Assembly: GCA_020631045.1 (NCBI GenBank)
Contig: JAHDHZ010000008.1
Coordinates: 1-61,514 of the forward strand
From: Flavobacteriales bacterium
GTDB lineage: Bacteria; Bacteroidota; Bacteroidia; Flavobacteriales_G; JALEGO01
DNA length: 61,514 bases
Reading direction: 5' to 3'
Positions 4,898-11,342 of this stretch are shown here, in pieces. The position numbers and the translations under genes were made by a program. Below the pieces are notes generated by a model. That model had not been told where the DNA came from. It saw only the letters and a list, made by a program, of their open reading frames with translations, and ran no database searches. How positions within the stretch are numbered: the first letter of the stretch is position 1; each line of letters opens with the position of its first letter.

Positions 4898-6167
4898 TCA
4901 TATTCTATTTTTGAGCCTTATAACATCTGGGTTAGTTGCACAAGAACAACAAGCTCAAACTGTAGAAGCTGAGCACACTCGCTATGCTCGAAAAATAATT
5001 GATCGATTGGCTTCTGATAATTTTTATGGAAGAGGCTACATTAAAGATGGTCACAAAAAGGCTGCTAAATTCATTAAAAATGAGTTTACAAATATTGGTC
5101 TCACTCCTTTTACAGGATCCTTTGAGCAATTCTATGACATTAAAGTCAATACTTTTCCTGATCACGTAGGGTTTTATGTGGGTGAGAAAAGATTAAAAAC
5201 CGGAGAAGACTTTATTGTACACGCCTCTTGCCCTACTTACAATCGAGCACATGAAGTCGTAAAGATTAAAAAACTCCCTAAAAAGCCCTCAAAAAAATAT
5301 ACTGATAAACTAGTTGTTGTTGATGAGTCCTTGATCAATAACGCTGAAGATAAAGCATCAGCAAGATCAGCAGTTTATAACAATATTTTTGGAGCTTCCG
5401 GGGTAGTTATTGCTAGAGAAAAAAACTTAACACACAGTTTTGATCAAAGCCAAAAAGACTATCCAATTATAGAGGTTTTAAAAAGCAAACTACCCTTGAT
5501 TTACAACAGAATGCATATTGTTGTTGATGCTGAGCTGAAAGATGTAAAAGCTGAAAATGTATTGGGGTATGTGCCAGGCACTGAGGTAAGCGACTCTTTT
5601 ATTGTCTTTACAGCCCATTATGACCATTTAGGAATGATGGGGTCTGATGTGATGTTCCCGGGCGCTAACGACAATGCCTCCGGCACAGCTATGCTACTGT
5701 CGTTAGCTCGCTACTTCAAAGAACACCCTGCTCGTTACTCAGTCGCATTCATCGCATTCGGAGCAGAAGAAGTAGGCTTATTAGGCTCTAAATACTATGT
5801 TGAACACCCAAAATTCTCACTCTCTAAAATTCGATTTTTAACCAACCTTGATATTTTTGGAACGGGCGATGATGGCATTCAAATTGTCAATTCAACTATT
5901 TATGAAAAAGAATATCAAATGTTGGCCAACATCAACGAGCGCAACAAGATGCTCATCCCTCAAATCAAAACAAGAGGCCAGGCAGCCAACTCTGACCACC
6001 ATCCATTTCACCAAAAAGGAGTGCCCAGTTTCTTTATCTACACCTTAGGAGGCATTGCCCACTACCACAACATTCACGACAAGGCAGAAACCCTTCCTTT
6101 AACAGAATTTGAAGACATATTCAGATTACTGGCTATTTTTGTAGGAGAATTAAGTGGAGAAAGATAA
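4884..6167 (+). CDS. M28-family metallopeptidase, exported
   Basis: A 427-residue zinc aminopeptidase-type protein of peptidase family M28, probably periplasmic or outer-membrane associated. A signal peptide (about residues 1-20, ending VAQ) supports the start at 4884 or 4887. The family's zinc ligands are all visible in order: His/Asp in 'FTAHYDHLG', Asp in 'PGANDNASG', the Glu pair in 'FGAEEVG', Asp in 'TNLDIFG' and His in 'NSDHHPFHQ'. The middle (about 95-200) is a PA-domain-like insert. Its 3' end overlaps rsmI by 14 bases, suggesting one transcript. The oddity is the terminator-like hairpin that covers its start codon. The substrate is not predictable. Confidence 0.88.
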   Translation: MMRFFHILFLSLITSGLVAQEQQAQTVEAEHTRYARKIIDRLASDNFYGRGYIKDGHKKAAKFIKNEFTNIGLTPFTGSFEQFYDIKVNTFPDHVGFYVGEKRLKTGEDFIVHASCPTYNRAHEVVKIKKLPKKPSKKYTDKLVVVDESLINNAEDKASARSAVYNNIFGASGVVIAREKNLTHSFDQSQKDYPIIEVLKSKLPLIYNRMHIVVDAELKDVKAENVLGYVPGTEVSDSFIVFTAHYDHLGMMGSDVMFPGANDNASGTAMLLSLARYFKEHPARYSVAFIAFGAEEVGLLGSKYYVEHPKFSLSKIRFLTNLDIFGTGDDGIQIVNSTIYEKEYQMLANINERNKMLIPQIKTRGQAANSDHHPFHQKGVPSFFIYTLGGIAHYHNIHDKAETLPLTEFEDIFRLLAIFVGELSGER

Positions 6168-6834
6168 TTGCTTATATATTGTAGCCACTCCCATTGGAAA
6201 TCTGGGTGACATTAGCTACCGAGCTGTTGAAGTATTGAAGAGTGTCGATCTTATTTTGGCAGAAGATACACGTCAAAGTCAAAAACTAATGCATCATTAC
6301 ACTATTTCGACCCCATTAAAAGCTTATCACCAACACAACGAACACCACAAAACCCAAGAATACATAGATCAAATCATAGCGGGCAAAAGCATTGCTGTTG
6401 TCTCTGATGCAGGTACTCCTGGTATTTCTGACCCAGGCTTCTTAATTGTTCGAGAAGCCATAAAAAACAACATTTCAATCATCTCTATTCCTGGCCCAGC
6501 AGCTTTTTTAACCGCCTTAGTAGCCAGCGGATTACCCTTAGAAAAATTCAGCTATGAAGGATTCCTTCCACCTAAAAAAGGTCGAAAAACCAAACTCGAA
6601 GAAATCACCATGAGCACTAAAACAATTGTTTTTTATGAGTCTCCTCACAAACTCATAAAAACCTTAACTTCTCTCACCGAATTACTCGCCCCTGAACGCC
6701 AAATAGTAGTGGCACGAGAACTGACCAAAATATTTGAAGAATTTATAAGAGGCAGTGCTCATGAAGTCTTAGAGCATTTCACCACACACAAACCTAAAGG
6801 AGAATTTGTTGTGCTTGTCGAGCCTGTTAAGTAA
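6154..6834 (+). CDS. rsmI: 16S rRNA (cytidine-1402-2'-O)-methyltransferase RsmI
   Basis: A 226-residue SAM-dependent methyltransferase of the tetrapyrrole-methylase fold that 2'-O-methylates C1402 of 16S rRNA in the decoding centre. Family marks are 'LYIVATPIGNLGDI' at the N-terminus, 'LAEDTRQSQKLM', 'VSDAGTPGISDPG', 'IPGPAAFLTALVASG', 'FEGFLP'-like 'YEGFLPPKKGRK', and 'VFYESPHKL'. The start is a GTG at 6154 inside the end of the M28 gene, with a good AGGAG ribosome site at 6143-6147; no closer in-frame start fits. It is somewhat shorter than the E. coli enzyme, as is usual in Bacteroidota. No partner of ribosome maturation is adjacent. Confidence 0.95.
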   Translation: MEKDNCLYIVATPIGNLGDISYRAVEVLKSVDLILAEDTRQSQKLMHHYTISTPLKAYHQHNEHHKTQEYIDQIIAGKSIAVVSDAGTPGISDPGFLIVREAIKNNISIISIPGPAAFLTALVASGLPLEKFSYEGFLPPKKGRKTKLEEITMSTKTIVFYESPHKLIKTLTSLTELLAPERQIVVARELTKIFEEFIRGSAHEVLEHFTTHKPKGEFVVLVEPVK

Positions 6835-8192: not shown

Positions 8193-8975
8193 TTAAAAGC
8201 CCCTACTTTCCCCAACATTGTGTACATGTTTAAAAACCTTAGAGTTGTTGTGCATCAATCTTTGTAATTCTTGATTAAAAAAACCATCAAGGTGCTGATT
8301 CCATTTTCCAGGATGTTTTTTTAATTCTAAAAAACTATTTTCTAAAGTCTTTACATACAGTTTCCTTTCTTTAGAATCAGAAATAAAAATAGGAGCATTC
8401 ATCTCGTGCATTAACATCCAGTTTTTAGCTACTCGTATGGTTCTACCATTTCCGTCAACAAAGGGGTGTATTCTAATAAGCTCATGATGAAGATAAATAG
8501 CTTTAATAATAGGCTCTTCAATCAATTTTATATTTTCAAAAACTTGACTTACTAAAGAATTGATAATTTTTGGTTCAGGGCATAAAAAACCACCAATTTG
8601 CACATCACTTTTACGAAATCCATTCGGATGCCTTGAATGTGCATCGGGTGAAATAAGTCTAAATAATTGAAAAAGTTGCACTTGAGAAGTGAAATTAACC
8701 TGGTTTTTTAGCTCTTCTGTAACAAAATCAACTGTATTTTTTAAATAAACTTCATACTGCTTAGCTTCTTGTTCAGATTGCGCTTCAAGTTGAGCGTTCT
8801 TTATACTGAGCAAGGTTTTGTAATCCGTTATTTTTGACAAATATGCATTGAGTAAATCATCTGCAAAATGAGCTCTACTATAAGCAATAAGTCTTAGCGT
8901 ATCTGCAGCCTTTTTTTTAATCTGGTTTAAAAAGTTAGAATCGTATCTGATTTTTTCTGGCGACAATATGATCAT
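8193..8975 (-). CDS. Fic-family protein (AMPylase-type) coupled to SbtA gene
   Basis: A 260-residue Fic-domain protein. Fic enzymes transfer AMP, or another nucleotide part, from a nucleotide to a hydroxyl side chain of a target protein. The complete active-site motif HPFVDGNGRTIR is at residues 170-181, and a flap-like strand ('FRKSDVQIGG') is at 120-129, so it should be active. Residues 60-65 (NAQLEA) align with the inhibitory motif S/TxxxEG/N of class II Fic proteins: the key Glu is kept, but flanking residues differ. The open frame reaches to 9017, but the ATG at 8975 is chosen because it overlaps the SbtA stop as ATGA, a classic translational coupling. The target is unknown; the transporter or its small neighbours are candidates by position only. 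Confidence 0.88.
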   Translation of the reverse strand: MIILSPEKIRYDSNFLNQIKKKAADTLRLIAYSRAHFADDLLNAYLSKITDYKTLLSIKNAQLEAQSEQEAKQYEVYLKNTVDFVTEELKNQVNFTSQVQLFQLFRLISPDAHSRHPNGFRKSDVQIGGFLCPEPKIINSLVSQVFENIKLIEEPIIKAIYLHHELIRIHPFVDGNGRTIRVAKNWMLMHEMNAPIFISDSKERKLYVKTLENSFLELKKHPGKWNQHLDGFFNQELQRLMHNNSKVFKHVHNVGESRGF

Positions 8976-9931
8976 AAAGCATTGATTAAAAAGAAATAGT
9001 ATGGTATCCCTATACATATGTTAAAAGGAAACGTAATGGCCAATGCCATTGGAACAAATATCCCCTCATCAGCTTTTGGAACAGCTAGCTTCATTGAAGC
9101 AGGAACAGCTATGTATGAAGCACTTGCGCCAAGTATGCAAAATAATAGCGCATCACCTTTTAAAATATCAATGTAAGAACAGATTAAAGCCATTATAGTA
9201 CCTATTAGCAAAGGAAATAATAGAGCTAAGAAAACATAATAAACACTATTTTTTAAGAAAGACTTTATCTTAGAACCACACTTAATGCCCATATCTAATA
9301 AAAAGACGCATAAAAATCCAACAAATAAATCTGTTGTAAAGGGTTTTATTCCTTGTGCTTGTTGATCACTTGACAGCATGCCCACCAGAAGACTCCCCAG
9401 AATTAAAACAACACTACTGTTAGTAAAAGCGTGTTTGAGAACTTTTGTGAGAGAACTTACATGTTCATCTTTTCTGCATAAGTTTAACATAATTAATCCA
9501 ACAACAATGGCTGGTGCTTCCATTAAAGCCATCACAGCAATCATATTACCACTGTAATTTATGTTGTTCATTTCTAAAAAAGAAACTGCCGTAATAAATG
9601 TCACAGCACTTACTGATCCATAAGATGCTGCCACAGCAGTAGAATTATGAATGCCCAGTTTGTGTTTAGTCAATAAAAAAACAATACATGGTATAATTAA
9701 TGCCAAAGAAATTCCAATAAAAAAAGATTGGTATATATCTTCAATCAAGTAATTATGCGTTAATTCCTGCCCTCCCTTAAATCCAAGTGCAAAAAGTAAG
9801 TAAAGGGCAATGAATTTAGATGAAGACTCCGGAACTTTTAAATCACTTTTAATGACACTTGAGAATAAACCCAACACAAAAAATAAAAGTGCTGGGTTTT
9901 TTAAATTATCTATAATAACGTGTGCATTCAT
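8972..9931 (-). CDS. sbtA: SbtA-type sodium-dependent bicarbonate transporter
   Basis: A 319-residue integral membrane protein with about ten hydrophobic segments in two similar halves. It matches the SbtA family, known in cyanobacteria as Na+/HCO3- symporters with high bicarbonate affinity. Recognisable parts are 'NPALLFFVLGLFSSVIKSDL', 'LYLLFALGFKGGQEL' and, in the second half, 'FVGFLCVFLLDMGIKCGSKI' and 'GASASYIAVPASMKLAVPKA'. In a heterotroph the likely role is supply of bicarbonate for anaplerotic carboxylation or pH control; that is inference. No SbtB (PII-like) gene, carbonic anhydrase or SulP gene is adjacent. It begins 1 base after the stop of the 88-residue gene and overlaps the Fic gene by 4 bases. 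Confidence 0.87.
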   Translation of the reverse strand: MNAHVIIDNLKNPALLFFVLGLFSSVIKSDLKVPESSSKFIALYLLFALGFKGGQELTHNYLIEDIYQSFFIGISLALIIPCIVFLLTKHKLGIHNSTAVAASYGSVSAVTFITAVSFLEMNNINYSGNMIAVMALMEAPAIVVGLIMLNLCRKDEHVSSLTKVLKHAFTNSSVVLILGSLLVGMLSSDQQAQGIKPFTTDLFVGFLCVFLLDMGIKCGSKIKSFLKNSVYYVFLALLFPLLIGTIMALICSYIDILKGDALLFCILGASASYIAVPASMKLAVPKADEGIFVPMALAITFPFNICIGIPYYFFLINAL

Positions 9932-9932
9932 T

Positions 9933-10199
9933 TTAATGCGTGATTTCTAATTTACAGTTTATTTTAAACTGATGTCTTTCACTAGACAATAGAGCCTCCC
10001 TTAATGTTTTTTTAATAGAATTAAGCTCATCTACTTCTTTCTTTAGAATAGTATCTGAAGTACTGTGATCTTTTTCCCATTTGGTCAAAAATTCTAACTT
10101 TTTGGTATTGATAATCTGATCATAAAACTGATCAGTAAATTGTAATGCATTTAAATAAGACATTTCTATTTCAATATTTTTATCTTCACTATTTTTCAT
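9933..10199 (-). CDS. Small acidic-basic helical protein of unknown function (88 aa)
   Basis: I do not recognise this protein. It is 88 residues, soluble, rich in Lys, Glu and Asp, with no signal peptide or membrane segment, and mostly predicted helical by eye ('LKKEVDELNSIKKTLREALL' looks like a short coiled coil). It overlaps the upstream 63-residue membrane gene by 11 bases and stops 1 base before SbtA, so the three are almost certainly made from one mRNA. Its size and position resemble the SbtB regulator that accompanies SbtA in cyanobacteria, but it lacks the features of a PII-like fold, so it is not called SbtB. Confidence 0.7.
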   Translation of the reverse strand: MKNSEDKNIEIEMSYLNALQFTDQFYDQIINTKKLEFLTKWEKDHSTSDTILKKEVDELNSIKKTLREALLSSERHQFKINCKLEITH

Positions 10200-10380
10200 G
10201 TGGTTTTTTATTTAAAAAGTTGATAATTATACAAAGTGTAATAACCCAAAAGGCAACAATGGTTTTTTGAGTCATTATATGTTCTGTTGATATAAATGCA
10301 TTTATTAAAAGAATATTTAGACCAACAAAAAGACTTAAGCTAAAAAGCTGTTTTAGAAAATATAAACCCGAGTTATTCAT
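10189..10380 (-). CDS. Small two-helix membrane protein (63 aa)
   Basis: A 63-residue protein with two hydrophobic helices (about residues 7-30 and 38-56) and a short basic tail. I recognise no family. It is the first gene of the SbtA operon and overlaps the 88-residue gene by 11 bases. Small membrane proteins of this kind often act as subunits or modulators of a transporter; that is inference from position only. The coding call rests on the clean overlap with its neighbour and sensible membrane topology. Confidence 0.65.
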   Translation of the reverse strand: MNNSGLYFLKQLFSLSLFVGLNILLINAFISTEHIMTQKTIVAFWVITLCIIINFLNKKPHEK

Positions 10381-10384
10381 AGTT

Positions 10385-10392
10385 CAAATATT
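10385..10392 (-). promoter_or_regulatory. Possible -7 box of the SbtA operon
   Basis: Minus-strand AATATTTG differs by one base from TAnnTTTG and ends 4 bases before the ATG at 10380. It is a weak match, listed because the same close spacing recurs elsewhere in the window. Confidence 0.3.
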
Positions 10393-10424
10393 GAAAAATA
10401 AATACATAAGTAAAAAGTTATATT

Positions 10425-10443
10425 TCTTATATTAGATATAAGA
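10425..10443. promoter_or_regulatory. LysR-type operator candidate
   Basis: TCTTATAT-TAG-ATATAAGA: 8-base perfect arms around 3 bases, containing the T-N11-A pattern bound by LysR-type regulators. It lies in the 74-base divergent region between the SbtA operon and the LysR gene, 11 bases before the regulator's ATG, where it could also serve autoregulation. Confidence 0.6.
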
Positions 10444-10454
10444 TAAACTTATAG

Positions 10455-11342
10455 ATGAACTATTCATTACATCAATTAAGAATTTTTTTAAAAGTTGTAG
10501 AGCTTAAAAACATCACTAAGGCTGCAGAACAAATGCATATTACTCAGCCTGCTCTTTCTATGCAATTAAAAAACTTTCAAGGGCAATTTAACATGCCTTT
10601 ATATGAGTATGTTTCTAAAAGAATTATTATTACAGATTTTGGGCAAAAAATTGCCACCCTTGCTAAATCAACAGTAGAACAATCTGATCAAATTAAATAT
10701 CACACAAAGGCCTATCAAAATCTATTTTCAGGTGAACTCAAAATATCTTCAGCATCAACCGGAAAGTATGTAATACCCTATTTTTTAGAAGGATTTATAG
10801 AAAAGCATAAAGGAATCGACTTGAATTTAGATGTTTCAAATAAGCGAAAAGTCATTGAGGATCTTAATCATAAATTGATTGACTTTGCTCTTGTTTCAGT
10901 AGTTCCTGATAATTTAGAAATTGAACAAGAACTACTTATAGACAATAAATTGTATTTAGTTGGAAAAAACACGACCTATGATCATACAACTCGTTTAATA
11001 TACCGTGAAGAAGGCTCTGCAACCCGAGCTGTGATGGATGCTTTTTTTGAAGCTGAAAATCAAAGAAAAAGCTTAAAACTTACATCAAATGAAGCTGTAA
11101 AGCAAGCTGTAATTGCTGGCTTGGGAATTTCTATTTTGCCTATTATTGGCATTAAACACGAACTAAGTTCAGGAACCCTAAAAATTATACCTAAAAAGAT
11201 ACTGCCTATTGTGACTAAATGGCGTTTAATTTGGTTAAAAAACAGAGTTTTATCACCAGTAGCGCAAGCATATTTGGCATATGTTAGGGAACATAAAGAA
11301 TCTATACAGAAAAACAACTTTAAATGGGTAAAAAAATTCTAA
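10455..11342 (+). CDS. LysR-family regulator, divergent to SbtA operon
   Basis: A 295-residue LysR-type transcription factor. Residues 1-60 form the winged helix-turn-helix ('LKNITKAAEQMHITQPALSM', then 'FQGQFNMPLYEY'), and about 90-290 form the periplasmic-binding-protein-like effector domain. It resembles the CbbR/CmpR branch that controls carbon-fixation or bicarbonate genes, which fits its place opposite the SbtA operon, but the effector cannot be read from the sequence. A palindromic T-N11-A site lies in the shared promoter region. Its 3' end overlaps the next gene by 19 bases, so it probably leads a three-gene operon. Confidence 0.88.
   Translation: MNYSLHQLRIFLKVVELKNITKAAEQMHITQPALSMQLKNFQGQFNMPLYEYVSKRIIITDFGQKIATLAKSTVEQSDQIKYHTKAYQNLFSGELKISSASTGKYVIPYFLEGFIEKHKGIDLNLDVSNKRKVIEDLNHKLIDFALVSVVPDNLEIEQELLIDNKLYLVGKNTTYDHTTRLIYREEGSATRAVMDAFFEAENQRKSLKLTSNEAVKQAVIAGLGISILPIIGIKHELSSGTLKIIPKKILPIVTKWRLIWLKNRVLSPVAQAYLAYVREHKESIQKNNFKWVKKF

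Follow-up and report, generated by a model that had tools for sequence, protein, structure and literature searches.

An SbtA operon without detected SbtB in a Flavobacteriales bacterium carries small proteins that recur at LysR-linked inorganic-carbon loci of Bacteroidia

Introduction

The control of the transporter SbtA is known from cyanobacteria, where it is exerted by SbtB. The structures 7CYE and 7CYF, which we take to represent the cyanobacterial sbtA-sbtB system, involve the Synechocystis SbtA (slr1512) and the PII-like SbtB. In cyanobacteria, SbtA is a sodium/bicarbonate symporter (PMC8352866). A further component, SbtC of Synechocystis (Walke et al. 2026), is described in PMC13360264 as the product of a small ORF upstream of sbtAB that has a predicted transmembrane helix and restrains SbtA. 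The control of SbtA known so far thus consists of SbtB and, since 2026, of SbtC, both of them cyanobacterial. The literature searched contained no paper on the control of SbtA in Bacteroidota, many of which carry SbtA without a detectable SbtB.

Here, we analyse an SbtA locus within a stretch of 61,514 nucleotides (the window) from a Flavobacteriales bacterium (assembly GCA_020631045.1, contig JAHDHZ010000008.1). Like the cyanobacterial sbtA-sbtB pair, it combines an SbtA-family transporter and a small soluble protein in one operon. Unlike it, the genome has no match to the SbtB profile, the small protein (P88) is encoded upstream of SbtA, and its modelled fold is strand-helix-helix-strand, whereas SbtB has the ferredoxin-like fold of PII proteins. 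The second small protein, P63, shares with SbtC, as the latter is portrayed in PMC13360264, the origin from a small ORF upstream of sbtA and a predicted membrane helix, a likeness of position and helix alone: SbtC has one possible transmembrane helix and occurs with SbtB, whereas P63 has two and occurs without it. Some loci with P88 have the gene order LysR, P88, DabB, DabA (L164, L169, L177, and L183) and thereby recall the dabAB inorganic-carbon pumps, but the window carries SbtA, and DabA is absent from the source genome. Finally, the operon ends with a gene for a Fic-domain protein that resembles the AMPylases FICD and SoFic in its Fic domain and intact motif, and has FICD as its best match in the PDB (E = 1.6e-9); AMP transfer is putative here. 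It differs from them in that it lacks a TPR domain and any clear inhibitory motif, and belongs to a group of 260-aa proteins of which three other members were found.

Results

The four minus-strand genes of the original prediction are all present between 8193 and 10380: P63 (10189-10380; 63 aa, two predicted transmembrane helices), P88 (9933-10199; 88 aa, soluble), SbtA (8972-9931; 319 aa), and the Fic-domain protein (8193-8975; 260 aa). Its junctions hold as well, with an 11-base overlap between P63 and P88, a 1-base gap between P88 and SbtA, and an ATGA overlap between SbtA and Fic. The start of Fic is at 8975, the position to which three orthologues align (the mechanical list of ORFs gave 9017). 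A LysR-family regulator encoded divergently on the plus strand (10455-11342), absent from that earlier account, is a constant part of the system, and the 74 bases in between (10381-10454) form a divergent promoter region. The tight coupling of the genes had been read as the sign of a functional link, a reading that the rest of the window does not bear out: in 19 of its 27 codirectional pairs of ORFs of at least 120 aa, the two members are no more than 10 bases apart, and several of these close pairs consist of unrelated genes. Because most codirectional pairs are equally close, the tight junction between SbtA and Fic is no evidence of function.

The transporter is a clear member of Sbt_1 (PF05982, E = 1e-101, residues 13-316) and matches the structure of the Synechocystis SbtA (7CYE, E = 2e-21). 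Two of the residues proposed to bind bicarbonate, S114 and S324 in the numbering of the Synechocystis protein, are retained, and two are replaced (Y140 by M and S327 by A), as they are in nearly all homologues from Bacteroidia, those with SbtB included. Since two of the four proposed ligands differ, bicarbonate transport by the SbtA of the window is only assumed. The search for Sbt_1 covered 395 genomes of the class, 95 of which had a match, as well as the order, and provided 100 SbtA neighbourhoods, of which 99 were usable. In 25 of them, a gene for isocitrate dehydrogenase is located no further than 3.5 kb from SbtA. At one locus (L092), an MscS-like gene is found upstream of SbtA.

Three kinds of small protein occur at the 99 loci: SbtB, downstream of SbtA (13 loci in 8 families); P88, upstream (32 loci in 20 families); and a second family, T2, of about 85-130 aa, which takes the place of P88 at seven loci where LysR is always present (L110, L120, L122, L123, L125, L128, and L132). 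The possibility that P88 and T2 are a single family was ruled out by a profile comparison (0.4% probability). No two of the three kinds ever co-occur; for P88 and SbtB, the absence of any joint locus among the 99 has a Fisher p of 0.008, in a test on locus counts that ignores shared ancestry, and a single split between clades could explain this exclusion. In the SbtA tree, a clade of 81 rows (SH-aLRT 100) contains the SbtA of the window and every locus with P88 or T2, and all 13 loci with SbtB lie outside it. The branch of the window SbtA is unusually long (1.55, compared with a median of 0.25 for end branches), and its position inside the clade is therefore uncertain. Long branches are also seen in the SbtA copies L125 and L126, from a genome of the same family. 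At 47 of the 99 loci, none of SbtB, P88, and T2 was detected, and a small partner is therefore optional. When the SbtB profile was run genome-wide on 44 genomes, it recovered all five positive controls and matched nothing in the other 39, which include the source genome and 36 more of the P88 or T2 type; by this search, the genome encodes no PII-like SbtB with its SbtA.

The P88 of the window belongs, as a divergent member, to an undescribed, LysR-linked family of small beta-alpha-alpha-beta proteins. An iterated profile of this family, built without the protein of the window, retrieved it with E = 5e-5 (the next of the 229 ORFs of the window had 0.03), with a score higher than those of all 2000 shuffles preserving segment composition, and the gene has its expected place upstream of SbtA with a divergent LysR. 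No family of Pfam or NCBIfam matched this protein or the P88 set as a whole. The AlphaFold2 model (26 sequences, pLDDT 90) has two helices between two strands, and its comparison with the PDB by Foldseek returned nothing under E = 0.05. The top match, a protein of Synechococcus sp. WH 8102 (4DCI, E = 0.06), is non-significant and a weak lead. As for P63, Pfam offered DUF969 alone, below threshold. Small membrane proteins, mostly with two hydrophobic stretches, are encoded upstream of SbtA at about a dozen loci, and a profile of 12 of them, all from other SbtA loci, ranked P63 first in the window (E = 5e-5; next ORF 0.076). Its score exceeded, narrowly, those of all 2000 shuffles that preserve hydrophobic segments (17.1 vs a maximum of 16.3 bits). 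Both P88 and P63 are divergent in sequence, and their matches to the two profiles, clear as they are, remain modest.

The genome-wide search found P88 in 68 of the 395 genomes of the class. Within SbtA loci, P88 is mostly directly upstream of SbtA. The 36 loci where it lies away from SbtA have isocitrate dehydrogenase (26), DabA (6), or none of these systems (4); hence, P88 is not specific to SbtA but a companion of LysR and of inorganic-carbon genes generally. Many Bacteroidia encode an isocitrate dehydrogenase with the C-terminal bacterial domain followed by P88 and preceded by a divergent LysR (e.g., L158, where it spans 5381-6817 with P88 downstream, and likewise L157-L165, L167, L168, and others).

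The regulator itself has both LysR domains in Pfam (PF03466, 7e-29, and PF00126, 4e-16), and its best NCBIfam model is CbbR, at 153 bits and under the cut-off. The LysRs of SbtA and P88 loci form one close group, with 215-376 bits to that of the window, compared with 44.5 bits for the other, unrelated LysR of the window. LysR is found within 3.5 kb of P88 in 27 of the 32 SbtA loci that have P88 and in 25 of the 36 other P88 loci, and it is more frequent near SbtA in the presence of P88 (27/32) than in its absence (21/67, p = 1e-6, again ignoring shared ancestry). The divergent region of the window contains two T-N11-A dyads with 5/5 matches (10383-10395 and 10428-10440), possible LysR boxes; shuffles are expected to have 0.19, and two or more were seen in 1.2% of them. 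Judged from the sequence, this arrangement is compatible with LysR binding.

This linkage bears on the alternative that P88 interacts with LysR, as its partner or target, and is a protein of the inorganic-carbon regulon that never touches SbtA, in which case adjacency would reflect shared regulation only. That LysR is close to P88 in 52 of the 68 P88 loci, despite three unrelated downstream systems, is in favour of this alternative, and so are loci L156 and L176, where LysR and P88 stand without SbtA, DabAB, or isocitrate dehydrogenase. Yet the mutual exclusion of P88 and SbtB at SbtA loci and the usual position of P88 immediately 5' of SbtA argue against it, and we regard it as possible but somewhat doubtful. 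The genes next to P88 point to a common regulation in addition to a physical association, which is a reservation about the interpretation that we favour below.

The Fic-domain protein (PF02661, E = 1e-14) is the sole Fic match in the genome, and its catalytic motif is intact, as the original prediction had it: HPFVDGNGRTIR (HxFx(D/E)GNGRxxR), at residues 170-181 and conserved in the orthologues. Its one match to [S/T]xxxE[G/N], SQVFEN, lies mid-protein and is unconserved in the orthologues, and a predicted model of the protein (pLDDT 50) was set aside. Full-length orthologues were found in two of 42 genomes of the order (G018 and G031, 54-55% identity) and a third among the 395 genomes of the class (G135), with none in 16 other genomes of the family of G135. 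A scan of genome contigs with Fic as the query provided one distant Fic; viral contigs had no relatives, and plasmids had distant Fics only. At the 99 other loci, no homologue of this Fic is encoded in the 3.5 kb around SbtA on either side. At L051, a Fic-motif gene of another kind lies about 2 kb from SbtA, on the opposite strand and with two genes in between. G018, which also has P88, carries its SbtA operon on contig 22 but its Fic gene on contig 26, amid unrelated genes; in G031, Fic overlaps and precedes a YitT-like gene; and in G135 (L195, 2449-4474), it lies between MscS-like and TerC-like genes, with an ATGA overlap with the latter. A conserved SbtA-Fic unit is thus ruled out by about 100 neighbourhoods and by the orthologues lying elsewhere. 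Three of the four Fic copies abut membrane-protein genes, and four cases are too few to build on. Fic is patchy, its position behind SbtA was found once, and we interpret this position as a chance event in a single lineage. No paper naming SbtA together with a Fic domain was found in the literature searched.

These results weigh on two explanations that give Fic a role in the operon. According to the first, Fic would AMPylate SbtA or one of the small proteins (P63 or P88), and Fic and these proteins together would supplant SbtB in the control of bicarbonate uptake. The ATGA overlap and the intact HxFxDGNGRxxR motif speak for it, as does the adjacency of two of the three orthologues to membrane-protein genes. 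Against it, Fic adjoins SbtA in this genome alone among about 100 loci, G018 has SbtA, P88, and Fic with the latter on a separate contig, and tight junctions are the background of the window. We consider it very unlikely. The second builds on the FicTA and Doc-Phd modules, in which Fic domains are found. It would make Fic a toxin and P88 (or P63) its antitoxin, a pair inserted around SbtA, with which the lack of a clear inhibitory motif in Fic itself would agree. But many loci with P88 or two-helix membrane proteins have no Fic, no P88 lies beside the Fic orthologues, and neither P88 nor P63 contains the antitoxin motif [S/T]xxxE[G/N], which places the locus outside FicTA. We reject a Fic toxin with either small protein as its antitoxin and regard any such pair around SbtA as highly improbable.

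Discussion

The notable feature of this locus is its small proteins rather than the pairing of SbtA with Fic: they form part of a wider, LysR-linked set of loci around inorganic carbon, one component of which is an uncharacterised family of small proteins. We favour, as reasonably probable, the interpretation that this is an operon for inorganic-carbon uptake under the control of LysR, belonging to a type that is common in Bacteroidia and has no SbtB; P88 and P63 would modulate the uptake, and Fic would be a passenger. The analysis shows directly which genes the locus contains, which families they belong to, how they recur together, and that SbtB is not detectable. The roles that we infer for P63, P88, LysR, and Fic would be the following. 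LysR would sense the carbon status of the cell, bind the divergent promoter region, and turn on P63-P88-SbtA. SbtA would then import bicarbonate with sodium, most likely for the carboxylation reactions of a heterotroph. P63 may sit beside SbtA in the membrane, in a manner resembling SbtC, and P88 may modulate uptake by acting on the transporter itself or by a relay to LysR. The presence of P88 next to isocitrate dehydrogenase and DabAB suggests that it serves inorganic-carbon metabolism as a whole. Fic, probably co-transcribed with SbtA, would have landed behind it in this lineage and have its own separate target.

How does this compare with the initial idea that AMPylation and the small proteins together replace SbtB? 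The part on the small proteins receives indirect support: SbtB was not detected, and their families recur at SbtA loci that lack it. The part on Fic is unsupported, since the gene order is seen solely in this genome, an outcome named beforehand as refuting the idea, the three orthologues lie away from SbtA, and the junction is that of the background. Even for the small proteins, the association of P88 with isocitrate dehydrogenase and DabAB suggests that it acts with LysR or on inorganic-carbon metabolism and is not an SbtA-specific replacement of SbtB. One could go further and regard P88 as a new non-PII class of inorganic-carbon signalling proteins that, with one type of LysR, either controls three unrelated systems (SbtA, DabAB, and isocitrate dehydrogenase) or reports on them, and that has replaced SbtB in a large clade of SbtA; this is a speculative proposal that we hold to be rather unlikely.

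That one family of small proteins and one group of LysRs accompany SbtA, DabAB, and isocitrate dehydrogenase suggests that heterotrophs have a common regulon for inorganic carbon. Other genes are seen in these neighbourhoods. DUF6671 (PF20376) is often part of the P88 operon, with SbtA or with isocitrate dehydrogenase (L060, L067, L079, L080, L100, L162, L165, and L172), and Sua5, a bicarbonate-using enzyme, joins some of the loci (L041, L088, L093, L103, and L106).
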